Below are positions 9,737 to 15,293 of a stretch of DNA of 25,666 nucleotides, piece by piece. The notes beneath the pieces are model-generated. The model saw only the letters and a program-made list of their open reading frames with translations, ran no database searches and was not told the origin of the DNA. This DNA comes from a virus, in the IMG/VR virus record IMGVR_UViG_3300045010_000227, positions 1-25,666 of that record. One strand, given 5' to 3'. Position 1 is the stretch's first letter, and each line of letters starts with the position of its first letter. The position numbers and the translations under genes were made by a program.

Positions 9737-10819
9737 TTGGTTAAAAGGGTAATACCAGTAATACCAGTAGTTGCTGGTCTTGCTGCCGGTGCAGCAGCAG
9801 TGGGCGCAACCACTGCTTATATGAACAGGGGTGATGTCGGGGAGGTTGAGGTAGCTCCAGGTTGGCAAGATACCGTTAGTGGTGCTATGGGTGGCCAGCC
9901 AAACCAACAACAGCCTCTTGCAGATGTCGATGGTTTAGGTAGTTCTCCAGCGGGTAGACAACCGCAAGCCGTGACCCCAGGGGATCTTAAAAGTGGTGAT
10001 TGGCCAACTCTAAATTCTAATGATTGGTCGATTTTTGCACCAGGCCCCTCTACGACACCCATAGATGCAGCGTTTTTATATTATCAATATCGTAGCGGTA
10101 TAAAATCTGGACAAAGTGTTCTACTTCCAGGAACAATACCTGGTAATTATTTATTTTTAGATCCTTCACGTTGGTCTAGTTGGTTAAAAGATACATACAA
10201 CACGGAAGATAAAGTGCTTGGGTTAAAAGCCAAACTTTTTAACGCTGGATATTTGAAGAATCCCGATTCTCTTCGAAGACAGGGATTTGATATGGATGGT
10301 GTAGATGCCGCATATGCAGCGTTTCTTGATCTTTCAAGCAAAAACCTTTCGGTGGCTAGAGCTGGTAGTAGATCTCTTCTGAATATTGAAGATTACCTTA
10401 ACACCGCTGAAGGTAAACAACAAGCTGAAATTAGGTCTCGTTTATACTTACCCACCCCGGCTGAATCAGAAGCCAGCCTACTCAGTTACTATCAAGAATA
10501 TGTTGGTAGAGCACCAAGTAGGAGGGAAGTTGAAGCTTTTACTCAAGCAGTCATGGCAGAAGCAAGAAAACGTCCTGAGGTTACAACCATTACGCCTGGT
10601 AAATTCATGGAAAGTGGTGAGATGTCACCAACATCTGAAGTCACTACTGGTGGTTTTGACAAAAAAGATCTTCCACTTATGGCAAGGCGTGAAGCTATGG
10701 CGGATCCAGAGTCTGGGCCGTATCGCATGGCTAGTAAATACTTCGACGCCTTCTTGGATGTCATTGGTACTCCGCAAGGTATGGGGACTAAGACGGACAT
10801 ATCTCAGCTTCTTACCTAA
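9737..10819 (+). CDS. membrane-anchored putative virion protein
   Basis: This is a 360-residue protein of unknown function. The TTG start is supported by the Shine-Dalgarno sequence AGGAG at 9726-9730. Right after the start comes a hydrophobic, Ala/Gly-rich segment (VIPVIPVVAGLAAGAAAVGA, residues 5-24) that could be a membrane anchor or signal. A glycine/proline/glutamine-rich linker follows. The later part contains the motif YYQEYVGRAPSRREVEAF, which I associate with virion proteins of similar phages. The stop codon lies inside the stem of a strong intrinsic terminator. It lies between the giant protein and the lysozyme-domain protein, so it is probably a companion in DNA entry. Confidence 0.8.
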   Translation: MVKRVIPVIPVVAGLAAGAAAVGATTAYMNRGDVGEVEVAPGWQDTVSGAMGGQPNQQQPLADVDGLGSSPAGRQPQAVTPGDLKSGDWPTLNSNDWSIFAPGPSTTPIDAAFLYYQYRSGIKSGQSVLLPGTIPGNYLFLDPSRWSSWLKDTYNTEDKVLGLKAKLFNAGYLKNPDSLRRQGFDMDGVDAAYAAFLDLSSKNLSVARAGSRSLLNIEDYLNTAEGKQQAEIRSRLYLPTPAESEASLLSYYQEYVGRAPSRREVEAFTQAVMAEARKRPEVTTITPGKFMESGEMSPTSEVTTGGFDKKDLPLMARREAMADPESGPYRMASKYFDAFLDVIGTPQGMGTKTDISQLLT

Positions 10820-10850
10820 AAAGTGGTATCTACTAGCACCACTTTTTTTT
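10818..10850 (+). terminator. strong intrinsic terminator inside the virion operon
   Basis: AAAAAGTGGT (10818-10827) pairs perfectly with ACCACTTTTT (10838-10847) around a 10-base loop, and T continues to 10850, giving an 8-base T-run (10843-10850). The stem overlaps the stop codon of the preceding gene. It would reduce transcription into the lysozyme-domain gene unless read through. Confidence 0.85.
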
Positions 10851-10910
10851 ACTTTATTTCTATTCCCGCACCAACCAGAACAGCAAGCACAAGTTTGGGA
10901 GAACAAAGAA

Positions 10911-12563
10911 TTGGCACCTAGGAAGACGAAGGTTCAAGTAGAGGATACTTCTAACGAAAGAAGGATTGCTCAACTTCTTGCCGAACGTGGTTACACCCCC
11001 AAAGGCATTGCCGCAATACTTGGTAACCTTAAAATGGAATCAGGTTTCAAGCCGAACGCACTAGAACCCAGCACGACCGGGGATCGACCCCTATCTAAAA
11101 GAGGATTCGGTATTGCCCAATGGACTGACGCTGGTCGTCAACAAAACTTAATTAATTTTGCCGAACAAAGGGGTGTACCCCTTACCGATCTAGAAATGCA
11201 AGTTGATTTTTTAGACCAAGAAATTAAAAAAAACGGTCGTTTATACAGGATACTTACCGGTGGTGAGGGTTCTACTAGATATTCAGTCGATACCCTTACA
11301 AAGGATTTTGAAGAAAACATTCTAAGACCGGACAAAAGAGTATCTAGAACTCAAGATCGAATTGCTTATGCGAGAGACGCGGAATCTAGGATTTCTAACA
11401 TGACCGGACAATCGGCTGGTCCGATAGTTGGCGGCAAGGGTGCTGCTGGGATGGGTTCTGTGCCCACACTTAGCGGAGCACCAAGGGAAACATCAAAAGG
11501 TAAAATCAAAGTTGGTGAGACAGAAACCGAGGTCTCAACACTACCGGCTGAAGTAGCAGCAGACACGGGCCTTGTGATGGCCGATGGTGAAATTCTTGGT
11601 GATCAACGTGTTGACCTCAAGAGTATGACCCCAGAGCAACGTAAGAAATATCGTGCTAATAAACTTGCTCAATATGGATTTGTTGAAGCAACGTTAAATC
11701 TAGATTCTGGTCGTCAGTACTATGACAAGGATGGTAGGCCAGTACCGCCAAACAAGGTTGTAACCTTGCGTTCCGTGTTTCAACAAGCGGTTCAACAAGA
11801 TTGGACTGCGGACAGATTTCAGGCCGAGTTAAGAAAAACAAATTGGTATCAGAGCACGTTTGATCAAAAGCGTCTGCAACAGGTTCTTCAAACCGTAGAC
11901 AGTGCGACCTTTGAGAACAATATTAGATTGATTTCTGATTCAATTAAGGAAACCTATAGATCTTACGGTGCGGATGCACCGGACGAACAGACGATTCGAG
12001 ACCTGGCAATTAAGAGTCTTTATACCGAGCTTAGCACAAAAGACTTCTTAGCTGGAATTGCCAACTCCATTAACTTTGCTGGTGAATCACTTAAGGGTGC
12101 GACCCTACAGGCTGCTGATCTTATTAGAAAGAATGCCAGAGCATACGGAATAAACTTTAGGACAAACGATACGAACTTTCAGTCTTATGTTCGACAAAGA
12201 ATTTCTGGTGAATTAAATGAAACCGACATTAACAACCAATTCCGCGAGCAGGCCATAAAGAACTATCCAGCACTCGCAGACCGTTTACGTGCTGGTGCTA
12301 CCCTGCGAGACATAGCAGATCCGTATCTAAGAGTTATGTCGGAGATCCTAGACATAGGAGAAAATGACATCAGCTTTGACGATCCCCTGATGCAATCAGC
12401 CTTGAACGGAACCTCACCGGATGAAGACCCAACCACTATGTCTTTGTGGGAATTTAAGAAAGCTATTCGAAAAGATCCAAGATGGGCTAGAACCCCCGAC
12501 GCACAGGATAAAATCAACAACGCACTTTCAGCGGTCTTGGCTGATTTTGGTTTGGTAAGATAA
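10911..12563 (+). CDS. lysozyme-domain virion protein (phage tail lysozyme type)
   Basis: The N-terminal domain (about residues 16-140) looks like the phage tail lysozyme family (Phage_lysozyme2). It has the pattern AAILGNLKMESGFKPNA, with the likely catalytic Glu43, followed by FGIAQW (66-71) and MQVDFLDQEI. It would cut peptidoglycan locally during DNA entry. The remaining ~400 residues are of unknown function and end in a segment with SLWEFKKAIRKDPRW. The open frame extends upstream to 10386, but that part overlaps another gene and translates the terminator. The TTG at 10911 is preceded by GGGAG at 10897-10901, so I chose it; the product is 550 residues. The stop overlaps the next ATG by one base. 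Confidence 0.85.
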   Translation: MAPRKTKVQVEDTSNERRIAQLLAERGYTPKGIAAILGNLKMESGFKPNALEPSTTGDRPLSKRGFGIAQWTDAGRQQNLINFAEQRGVPLTDLEMQVDFLDQEIKKNGRLYRILTGGEGSTRYSVDTLTKDFEENILRPDKRVSRTQDRIAYARDAESRISNMTGQSAGPIVGGKGAAGMGSVPTLSGAPRETSKGKIKVGETETEVSTLPAEVAADTGLVMADGEILGDQRVDLKSMTPEQRKKYRANKLAQYGFVEATLNLDSGRQYYDKDGRPVPPNKVVTLRSVFQQAVQQDWTADRFQAELRKTNWYQSTFDQKRLQQVLQTVDSATFENNIRLISDSIKETYRSYGADAPDEQTIRDLAIKSLYTELSTKDFLAGIANSINFAGESLKGATLQAADLIRKNARAYGINFRTNDTNFQSYVRQRISGELNETDINNQFREQAIKNYPALADRLRAGATLRDIADPYLRVMSEILDIGENDISFDDPLMQSALNGTSPDEDPTTMSLWEFKKAIRKDPRWARTPDAQDKINNALSAVLADFGLVR

Positions 12564-13642
12564 TGGCTAAGAAAACCAAGAAAAAACAAAATCCAGAAGA
12601 AATTTTTGGTTCTTCTTATTACGACCAAGTTCGTGCAAACATTGCGGCCGCCGAAGCCCGATACGGTAATCCAAATGAGGGTCGCGGTCCGGACCCAGTA
12701 AATGAGCCGGCACCAACCCCCACCGCACAACCGCCTGGTGGCGGTGGCGGTGGCGGTGGCACTGACTCAGAGGTTTTAAGAAGACTCCAGGCATTAGAAG
12801 ATGCAGCTCGGCGCGATCGAGAAACTAGACAACGTAACGAGATTGAAGCAGCCAAGGGTCTTGCTCGTCAGTTTGGTCTTGATGAATCTATCTTTGACAC
12901 CATCACAAGTCTTGTGCAGGAGGGTTTTGAGGGTCTTGCGTTGACCCTTCAACTTAGAGCCACACCCCAATATAAGCAAAGATTCAGCGGTAACGAATTA
13001 CTTAGGCAAAGAAGCCCGAGTACTCCCCAGCTTTCTCCTGAAGAATACTTACTTATCGAGCGTCAGTACGGTAACATTCTTACGACTTATGGATCAGCAG
13101 ACATAGCGACAAGGGATAACTTTGCTGAACTGATTGGTAATCAAGTATCAGCTAATGAATTACAGCAACGTTTTGAACTTGCGATTAACAAGGTTCGTAA
13201 TGCTGATCCAGCGCTACGCCAACAGTTAGTACAGGCGTTTCCAACAATTCAAGAAACCGACATCGCTCGTGCTTTATTGCTTGGCAAAGAGGGTTCGGAA
13301 TACTTGGGACGTAAGGTTAGGACTGCCGAGATCGGAGCAGAGGCCGTTACGTTTGGCCTTGGAACCGAAAGGGCAGTCGGTATAGAACAACTTGGTGTTA
13401 CCAGAGAGATGGCACGCCAGGGATTTGGTGCTATATCAAGACAGCTTCCGACACTAGAGAAGTTGGGTTCTATCTTCCGTGAAGACACGGCTGAACTCCA
13501 GCAAGAACTAGAGCGAGAGCAATTCCAGAATGTCGAGTCGCGCCGTAGGCGTAGACTAGTTGAATCCGAACAGGCACTATTTGGTGCCGAAGCGGGACTC
13601 GGATCCTCGGCCCTGAGGTCACAGACCAGAGGCCAGATCTAG
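12563..13642 (+). CDS. putative virion protein with Gly-rich linker
   Basis: This 359-residue protein has three visible parts: a basic N terminus (KKTKKKQ), a Pro-rich then poly-Gly linker (eight Gly in a row near residue 60), and a long helical region with a charged coiled-coil segment (LQALEDAARRDRETRQR) and an Arg-rich C terminus. The pattern YKQRFSGNELLRQ followed by LSPEEYLLIERQYG is one I associate with virion proteins near the portal in aquatic phages. The function is unknown, but it is likely internal or connector-associated. The start overlaps the previous stop by one base. Its TAG stop overlaps the first base of the tRNA-like fold. Confidence 0.8.
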   Translation: MAKKTKKKQNPEEIFGSSYYDQVRANIAAAEARYGNPNEGRGPDPVNEPAPTPTAQPPGGGGGGGGTDSEVLRRLQALEDAARRDRETRQRNEIEAAKGLARQFGLDESIFDTITSLVQEGFEGLALTLQLRATPQYKQRFSGNELLRQRSPSTPQLSPEEYLLIERQYGNILTTYGSADIATRDNFAELIGNQVSANELQQRFELAINKVRNADPALRQQLVQAFPTIQETDIARALLLGKEGSEYLGRKVRTAEIGAEAVTFGLGTERAVGIEQLGVTREMARQGFGAISRQLPTLEKLGSIFREDTAELQQELEREQFQNVESRRRRRLVESEQALFGAEAGLGSSALRSQTRGQI

Positions 13643-13711
13643 GAGCAGACAAGGCAGCCTTCTGTGATGTCTGAGGTCACAGAAGGAACGGTTCAATTCC
13701 GTACTGCTTCG
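13642..13711 (+). ncRNA. tRNA-like structured RNA element
   Basis: The ends pair like an acceptor stem: GGAGCAG (13642-13648) with CTGCTTC (13704-13710), 7 bp with one G-T. The 3' part forms a T-arm look-alike, ACGG (13688-13691) / CCGT (13699-13702), with the 7-base loop TTCAATT preceded by G and followed by C, as in tRNA. The middle is a perfect 10-bp hairpin, CCTTCTGTGA (13658-13667) / TCACAGAAGG (13677-13686), with a 9-base loop. A normal D-arm and 7-base anticodon loop are missing, and no CCA follows. It is therefore tRNA-like rather than a standard tRNA. It could also be a folded leader of the scaffold/capsid mRNA. Confidence 0.6.
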
Positions 13712-13717
13712 CCCATA

Positions 13718-13788
13718 GATGGATCGACCGGCCCCATCGTGAGAGAAAGTACCGGTAGCAAGATCCGACGGCAACGCCCCTGTTGTTG
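13718..13788 (+). ncRNA. structured leader segment before the scaffold gene
   Basis: GGATC (13721-13725) pairs with GATCC (13762-13766). Inside it ACCGG (13727-13731) pairs with CCGGT (13752-13756), with an asymmetric internal loop. A separate hairpin forms from CGGCAAC (13769-13775) and GTTGTTG (13782-13788). GATGG (13718-13722) can alternatively pair with CCATC (13734-13738). Together with the tRNA-like element this fills nearly the whole gap before the scaffold gene. No promoter is obvious. Confidence 0.45.
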
Positions 13789-13827
13789 ATCGAGGCTTGC
13801 GCAAACAAACCGAGGGAGATAGTTGCG

Positions 13828-14304
13828 ATGAGCAACCAATACGAAGACGACTACGAAGAAGATGAGCAAGAAGAACTAGACGGTACGGATTTAGTCAAGA
13901 AGCTTCGAAAGGCGGAAAGACTAAAGGAGAAAAGAATCAAGGAACTCGAGGGTGAGCTTTCCGAGATTCGAAGTGCCAGACGTTCTGATGTCATCAACTC
14001 AGTCCTCTCCGAAAGAGGCGTGAACACCAAGATCGCCAAGTTCATTCCATCAGATGTGGAGTCAACGCCCGATGCGTTGAATTCATGGTTGGAAGAGAAT
14101 GCGGATGTCTTTGGTATTCAATTGGCTTCTCCGCAAGAACAGTCTGAAGATCAGCAACGTCAGCTGCGTACGCTGAGACAGATTGACGCGATTACGGCTA
14201 ACGCCTCAGTGCCGGTAGGTGTGAATGAAATGTTCAATCGTATCGACCAGGCACAAAGCGCTGAGGAAATCTTAAATATGATTTACAGCGCTGAACAATC
14301 GTAA
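13828..14304 (+). CDS. capsid scaffolding protein
   Basis: This is the putative assembly scaffold that guides procapsid formation and is later lost. The 158-residue product has a very acidic N terminus (residues 5-19 nearly all Asp, Glu and Gln), a charged coiled coil (about 21-55), and a C-terminal part with ERGVNTKIAKFIP and LNSWLEENADVFG, a pattern typical of phage scaffold or capsid-assembly proteins. It lies directly before the major capsid gene. The frame is open upstream to a TTG at 13783, but the ATG at 13828 has the Shine-Dalgarno sequence AGGGAG (13813-13818), and the upstream codons lie in a structured leader. The ATG is therefore preferred. Confidence 0.85.
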   Translation: MSNQYEDDYEEDEQEELDGTDLVKKLRKAERLKEKRIKELEGELSEIRSARRSDVINSVLSERGVNTKIAKFIPSDVESTPDALNSWLEENADVFGIQLASPQEQSEDQQRQLRTLRQIDAITANASVPVGVNEMFNRIDQAQSAEEILNMIYSAEQS

Positions 14305-14327: not shown

Positions 14328-15293
14328 ATGTCAACATTTATTTCAACTGCCTCGTCTTCGCTTGGTGGTACAGTCGGCTCTGCCGGTCTGGTCCAAAAAG
14401 CGTATGACCGACTCGTTGAATTTGCGTTGCGCAGCCAACCGCTCATCCGCTCAGTTGCGGACAAGCGTCCTGCGCGACAGGCGATGCCAGGCTCCTCGGT
14501 AGCACTTCAGATTTACTCTGACCTATCGGTTGCCTCAAGCACGCTGACTGAGACCACCGACCCAAGCGCAGTTGGTCTTAGCACGCCTACCCAGGTAACG
14601 GTTACTCTAGAAGAGTACGGTAACGCAGCGATTGTAACCCGTAAGTTGCAGTTGTTCAGCTTGGCTGATGTCGACCCTGCTATCGCAGACATTGTCGCAT
14701 TCAACATGGCTGACAGCATCGACACGGTCGCACAGGAAGTTCTCCGTGCGGGTTCAAACGTTCGCTTTGCACTTGGTACGGCCGCAAGCCGTCCAGCAGC
14801 CACCTCGGCTGTTACCTCCTCAGCAACCATTGGCTCAAGCGACATTCGCTTTGCTGTTGCTAAGTTGCGTGCAAACAAATCCGTGCCCCGAAAGGGTTCG
14901 TTGTACTGGGTCGGTATTCACCCAGAGGTCTCACACGATCTTCGTGCTGAGACCGGTGCAGGTGGCTGGCGCCTCCCGCACGAATATCAAGCCAACGCAG
15001 AGATCTGGGCTGGTGAAATCGGAAACTACGAAGGTGCTTACTTTATTGAGTCAGCACGTATGTACAACGCTACCGATGGCTCTAGCTCGACCCGTGTATT
15101 CCGCACAATCGTCTGTGGCAAGCAAGCTCTTGCCGAGGCTGTTGCTGAGGAACCGCACACCGTCATTGGTCCTGTGGTTGATAGATTGATGCGATTCCGT
15201 CCGATCGGTTGGTACGGTGTGTTGGGCTTTTCCCGCTACCGTGAGGCCGCTCTGTTCCGAATTGAGTCAACCTCTTCGATCAACCTTACCTAA
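14328..15293 (+). CDS. major capsid protein, N4-gp56 family
   Basis: This 321-residue protein forms the capsid shell. The sequence fits the N4-gp56 family of HK97-fold capsid proteins: TPTQVTVTLEEYGNAAIVTRKL and DVDPAIADIVAFNMADSID in the first half, then WVGIHPEVSHDLRAETGAGG, WAGEIGNYEGAYFIES and GWYGVLGFSRYREAALFRIE towards the end. The ATG has the Shine-Dalgarno sequence AAAAGG (14316-14321). It follows the scaffold gene and is followed by a large RNA hairpin structure. Its GC content is clearly higher than that of the giant gene upstream, which may reflect codon selection for high expression. Confidence 0.95.
   Translation: MSTFISTASSSLGGTVGSAGLVQKAYDRLVEFALRSQPLIRSVADKRPARQAMPGSSVALQIYSDLSVASSTLTETTDPSAVGLSTPTQVTVTLEEYGNAAIVTRKLQLFSLADVDPAIADIVAFNMADSIDTVAQEVLRAGSNVRFALGTAASRPAATSAVTSSATIGSSDIRFAVAKLRANKSVPRKGSLYWVGIHPEVSHDLRAETGAGGWRLPHEYQANAEIWAGEIGNYEGAYFIESARMYNATDGSSSTRVFRTIVCGKQALAEAVAEEPHTVIGPVVDRLMRFRPIGWYGVLGFSRYREAALFRIESTSSINLT

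Follow-up and report, generated by a model that had tools for sequence, protein, structure and literature searches.

The window analysed here is a 25,666 nucleotide stretch of viral DNA in which a tRNA-like structure (TLS) and a pseudoknotted leader RNA lie side by side between a virion-region gene and the genes of the scaffold and the major capsid protein (MCP). The features of this junction, all on the plus strand, are the following:

12563..13642, +, upstream virion-region gene (359 aa, phrog_8424, no assigned function); its TAG overlaps the TLS by one base
13642..13711, +, TLS
13642-13648 with 13704-13710, +, TLS acceptor of 7 bp, GGAGCAG with CTGCTTC
13649-13657, +, D-loop-like unpaired stretch of the TLS, ACAAGGCAG, containing GG
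13658-13668/13676-13686, +, closed arm of the TLS, with loop 13669-13675
13688-13702, +, T-arm of the TLS, ACGG-TTCAATT-CCGT (stem 13688-13691/13699-13702, loop 13692-13698)
13711, +, G, discriminator of the TLS
13712..13717, +, linker CCCATA, from the TLS discriminator to leader helix P1; the C after the discriminator is found in nearly all members of the class
13718..13800, +, conserved pseudoknotted leader RNA
13718-13722/13734-13738, +, leader helix P1
13727-13731/13752-13756, +, leader pseudoknot
13758-13762/13796-13800, +, leader helix P2
13766-13775/13782-13792, +, leader helix P3 (A13789 bulged), with loop GCCCCT at 13776-13781
13812..13818, +, Shine-Dalgarno sequence GAGGGAG of the scaffold gene
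13828..14304, +, scaffold gene (158 aa, phrog_7813); in phage Dennebes its syntenic counterpart carries the annotation scaffolding protein
14328..15293, +, MCP of N4-gp56 type (phrog_1357, TIGR04387)

No recognisable intrinsic terminator or promoter was found at the TLS/leader junction of the window. Two long ORFs farther upstream (9737-10819 and 10386-12563) overlap in different frames; the second, which holds a tail-lysozyme-like stretch, probably either has a later true start or is joined to the first by a frameshift. Direct repeats are present at 96-308, upstream of the terminase gene, where a minus-strand ORF shows NGTVQYxVQLLSFSASxAEKL twice.

All elements of the fold were found where the original prediction had placed them between the virion-region gene and the scaffold gene, including the acceptor, the T-arm with its TTCAATT loop, and the first base, G13642, which closes the preceding stop codon (13640-13642). 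The 70 nt element has the 7-bp acceptor and the T-arm with a TTCRANY loop characteristic of tRNAs; its T-stem has 4 of 5 pairs, the fifth position being A-A. In the minimum-energy fold the D-arm and the 5-bp anticodon stem are absent, and one long arm stands in their place. What had been described as a perfect 10-bp hairpin is indeed a closed arm without mismatch, but of 11 bp, ten of them Watson-Crick and one G-U. Similarly, the claim that there is no normal anticodon loop is debatable: the arm does replace the D- and anticodon arms, but its 7-nt loop, GUCUGAG, can be read as U33, CUG and A37. A short alternative D-stem (AAGG-CAG-CCTT) competes with the 11-bp arm. The fold energy was -30.1 kcal/mol as compared with -18.1 ± 3.2 kcal/mol for dinucleotide shuffles (z -3.8; 1 of 200 shuffles was equally good), thus the fold is better than that of shuffled sequence. 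The location of the TLS at 10 nt from the leader loop, which is the modal spacing of the class, also lifts it above chance. These results confirm that 13642-13711 is a genuine tRNA-like structure.

As anticipated, no named family corresponds to this element: Rfam searches at the curated cut-off and at permissive settings (down to E 10) gave no family for the window TLS and no match to tRNA (RF00005) or tmRNA (RF00023), and ARAGORN called neither a tRNA nor a tmRNA there. An exact-sequence search gave no match, none of the relatives identified through the upstream protein or the scaffold protein carried a TLS of the window type, and the searches revealed no close homologue that shares its arm. 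Because of the latter, covariation was assessed for the class and not for the window's own arm, and it is at the class level that the predicted stem covariation held up (see below).

A stronger and universally conserved neighbour directly 3' of the TLS, the pseudoknotted leader, had been overlooked in the original prediction, as had the tmRNA-like and canonical-tRNA members of the class. The leader is approximately 85 nt long and lies just upstream of the scaffold gene. Covariance model R1 located the window copy at 13713-13804 (71.5 bits, E 4e-14). In an alignment of 50 leader sequences, 95.7% of the cells in the four helices (P1, pseudoknot, P2 and P3) were paired, and 255 double changes were counted as opposed to 72 ± 7 in shuffles; in slid-partner controls pairing fell to 31-44%. 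The leader had no Rfam match at cut-off or permissive thresholds. Every readable phage among the MCP relatives had it in the space that separates the upstream gene from the scaffold gene. Wherever the locus was long enough, the leader was followed by an ORF of 150-200 aa and then by the MCP gene. The 44 MCPs tested downstream of a leader all belonged to phrog_1357. When the scaffold protein was used as query, which is independent of the RNA patterns, the leader was recovered in most matches. Among leaders found without T-arm selection, a TLS was present in about 10 of 115, and in the freshwater clade nearest by MCP, which has the leader, in 0 of 75. Since most of these leaders have no TLS, the TLS is dispensable for the leader. 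Possible roles of the leader are protection of the 5' end and/or control of scaffold translation.

A few loci showed additional features. In a more distant lineage (L340 and L341) a different candidate leader, CTGCTACACTTTTGTCGATGCCCAAATAGGGCAGGAACCCCCAGACGGGGAGACATAGCAG, in which inverted repeats are visible and which has another fold, separates the phrog_8424-like gene from the ORF that comes next. Four Streptomyces genome contigs (L210, L220, L224 and L227) have the leader without a tRNA. The leader of L220 is preceded by a strong terminator-like hairpin and by the inverted repeat CTAGCAGA/TCTGCTAGC, which is perhaps a separate promoter/operator for the capsid operon. In L144 a group I intron (RF00028, 69.6 bits, cut-off 50) was detected at 682-937 on the minus strand, downstream of the leader and in or next to the capsid gene region.

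Loci with an element 5' of the leader were collected with a pattern that combined a T-arm with the beginning of the leader, which yielded at least 120 loci. Among the 80 matches listed the distance between T-arm and leader was 43-46 nt in 75, the window's included; the remaining few look like chance matches. The slot contained 90 distinct elements, 42 canonical tRNAs with many different anticodons and 48 non-canonical ones, whose sequences share kinship and do not count as independent events. For both kinds the discriminator was 8-12 nt from the leader loop (mode 10), spacing having been selected only within 8-38 nt. The T-arm served as search criterion, and its conservation in the class is therefore no evidence, whereas acceptor pairing, G3.U70, A73 and gene context were unselected. 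An upstream ORF homologous to that of the window was present in 76 of 84 tRNA/TLS loci. Common to nearly all slot elements is an acceptor/T-arm half whose discriminator is a purine with a C after it; this half stands 5' of the leader at a defined distance. Thus, a diverse subset of related phages has a canonical tRNA or a non-decoding TLS just 5' of the leader, and comparison of these sequences shows a two-part module of phages with N4-type capsids, in which a tRNA or TLS and the pseudoknotted leader precede the scaffold and capsid genes. The same comparison shows that full tRNAs, tag-less tmRNA-like domains and half-tRNAs interchange in one slot. The window has the leader directly before the scaffold gene and the N4-type MCP gene, and its discriminator falls within the 8-12 nt range.

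Most non-canonical TLSs resemble that of the window in having no D-arm and one long closed arm. As a rule the slot elements are 67-98 nt long and have no mRNA-like domain or tag reading frame. Four of them (L096, L105, L142 and L159) are reduced to an acceptor, a GG-containing D-loop and a T-arm, and that of L142 shares its first base with the end of the upstream stop codon, as the window TLS does. The combination of G3.U70 and A73 is the alanine identity of tRNA-Ala and tmRNA. It was found in 31 of the 42 non-canonical TLSs with good acceptor and T-stem, as opposed to 1 of 42 canonical tRNAs (Fisher p 2e-12). Independence among the 31 is incomplete, and one of them, L105, may be mis-registered, as a smaller element fits there. 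The 31 fall into 16 sequence clusters; G1-C72, G2-C71 and G3.U70 were present in 16 of 16, whereas acceptor pairs 4-7 drifted with compensatory changes (15-16 of 16 paired versus 7-11 when shuffled). These pairs were counted by position in a script since the MAFFT alignment of the TLSs was unreliable at the 5' end. With the Rfam tmRNA model (cut-off 47 bits), L124 scored 67.5 and L136 50.6 bits, while a further four reached 30-42 bits, all with the mRNA-like domain missing. The likeness to the tRNA-like domain of bacterial tmRNA (RF00023) extends to the overall plan of acceptor, D-loop with GG but no D-stem, long arm replacing the anticodon arm, and T-arm. Judged by these sequence features, most non-canonical TLSs are tag-less tmRNA tRNA-like domains. 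The window TLS has A3-U70 and G73, and consequently belongs to the slot and the module but not to the tmRNA-like subgroup.

Because many class members carry the alanine identity, the data suggest that many also act, or acted, as tmRNA mimics. Taken further, the excised TLS could acquire CCA and work in trans, serving as a mini-tmRNA without tag or mimicking a tRNA; it would be charged by alanyl-tRNA synthetase and bound by SmpB/EF-Tu, and would interfere with or redirect ribosome rescue in infection. The alanine determinants, their constancy in all clusters while the adjacent pairs drift, the tmRNA model scores and the retained GG of the D-loop all agree with this explanation. However, the window TLS lacks both the determinants and a tmRNA match, canonical tRNAs of any identity occupy the same slot, a free RNA would need no fixed spacing to the leader, and the incomplete independence of the 31 elements weakens the count. 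As an account of the slot we hold it to be unlikely.

The slot is also occupied in cultured phages. The Streptomyces Beephvirinae, including Abafar, are known to carry arrays of tRNA genes (PMC11536984). In ten isolates (Manuel, Treat, FlowerPower, JXY1, Abafar, Kumquat, Dennebes, Stella, WRightOn and RosePharie) an array of 14-22 tRNAs ends in a tRNA-Val; immediately after it comes a diverged leader copy, an unannotated structured RNA in the gap between tRNA-Val and scaffold gene. Model R1 missed these copies, but all four helices (P1, pseudoknot, P2 and P3) can be drawn in them, with covariation of the pseudoknot across the ten phages (GCUGG/CCAGC, GUCAG/CUGAC and GCCAG/CUGGC). Since the terminal tRNA-Val abuts the leader, its maturation must cut the mRNA at that point. 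The arrays share with the window the slot between a tail-side gene and the scaffold gene and the leader spacing; they differ in consisting of canonical decoding tRNAs, whereas the window TLS is not called as a tRNA. In prophages of Herbidospora and Phytoactinopolyspora the slot is taken by tRNA-Lys and tRNA-Asn.

Such arrays in relatives raise the question whether the window TLS is a relic, now functionless, of a decaying phage tRNA gene. The legible CUG in its arm loop would fit such an origin, as would the nearest freshwater relatives, which lost the TLS or never had it. Decay is difficult to reconcile with an acceptor paired at 7 of 7 positions, an intact T-loop and an 11-bp arm without mismatch in a fold of z -3.8, or with a class acceptor maintained by compensatory changes; furthermore, no canonical tRNA in the data set clearly resembles the window TLS beyond shuffled sequence. 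We assign this explanation a low probability. For the same lack of similarity beyond shuffled sequence, descent from a particular tRNA such as tRNA-Gln(CUG) was rejected. A remnant of an attachment site is also unlikely, as the elements lie complete, with the 5' strand of the acceptor, within a morphogenesis operon.

The fixed spacing of 8-12 nt and the invariable position of the leader directly before the scaffold gene could also mean that TLS and leader form a single cis regulatory fold, in which the acceptor would be stacked on P1 and the P3 loop would mask the Shine-Dalgarno sequence, controlling scaffold translation, for example autogenously by the scaffold protein. The CCC of the P3 loop is complementary to the GGG of the Shine-Dalgarno sequence, a match that is possible but generic in the window, and in the Streptomyces phages loop CCCUA is complementary to UAGGAG. 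However, complementarity between loop and Shine-Dalgarno sequence was no better than with mismatched partners (3.47 vs 3.45; 84 of 200 shuffles equally good), and a covarying helix between the two was rejected for want of support from this shuffle control. Taking into account also that the leader is retained without any TLS, a joint fold seems quite improbable. An HDV-type ribozyme was likewise rejected for the leader, which has no HDV double pseudoknot and no Rfam ribozyme match, and whose strands run in the order P1, pseudoknot, P1', pseudoknot' and then a hairpin apart from these, which differs from the HDV order.

The acceptor/T-arm half of a tRNA is the part recognised by RNase P and RNase Z. 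Because this half is what the class shares, we favour processing: the TLS may be a mark at which the transcript is cut so that the scaffold-capsid mRNA starts at the leader, a cleavage that we infer and to which we give about an even chance. A role as processing mark, one of those originally proposed, provides the best fit to the conserved half, the fixed distance to the leader and the interchange with tRNAs. The TLS would then be a punctuation signal within a long structural transcript. Host RNase P would cleave 5' of it, and the cut after the discriminator would be made by RNase Z or a different 3' endonuclease. These cuts would release the TLS, and an abundant scaffold-capsid mRNA would begin at the compact leader, which could then shield the new 5' end and/or regulate scaffold translation. 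Several observations speak against processing. Most leaders found without T-arm selection lack a TLS, among them those of the freshwater relatives that are nearest by MCP; RNase P processing does not require the G3.U70/A73 conserved in most non-canonical TLSs, which suggests alanylation or a function related to tmRNA; and the window's own TLS is without close homologue. For the class as a whole we propose, with confidence falling somewhat short of even, a new kind of RNA module in phages. Its punctuation marks would be interchangeable, whether tRNAs, tag-less alanine-identity tmRNA domains or bare acceptor/T-arm halves, and would make the capsid mRNA begin at a new pseudoknotted leader; the tmRNA-like elements may also be alanylated and interfere with ribosome rescue.

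Leader structures and post-transcriptional control have precedents in other phages: the mRNA of T4 gene 32 has a leader pseudoknot near its processed 5' end, and P22 scaffold is autoregulated, its synthesis being under post-transcriptional control. Both are analogies only, as their sequence and fold are unrelated to the leader. HDV-like theta ribozymes, which adjoin phage tRNAs and have been linked to tRNA 3' processing (PMC10879173), are similar to the leader in being structured RNAs beside phage tRNAs but differ in the respects given above. Phage Melnitz encodes a two-piece tmRNA (PMC9004378) and thus, like the class, carries a phage-borne ssrA sequence; that tmRNA, however, is complete and located elsewhere in the genome, whereas the class has tag-less domains before the capsid genes. 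No description of the leader or the module was found in Rfam 15 or in the literature searched, which is weak evidence as subscription journals were mostly outside the search. Mimics of tRNA and structured leaders in phages are both familiar; what appears to be new is their combination, together with tag-less tmRNA domains at this place.

These findings reveal a widespread structured RNA, absent from Rfam, that fronts the scaffold-capsid genes of many phages, cultured Streptomyces phages included, and tRNA-shaped elements, some of them tag-less tmRNA domains, that are maintained in a non-decoding setting. The punctuation of phage mRNA by tRNAs, and the possible use of alanyl-TLS or SmpB by phages, thereby become directly testable in laboratory strains.
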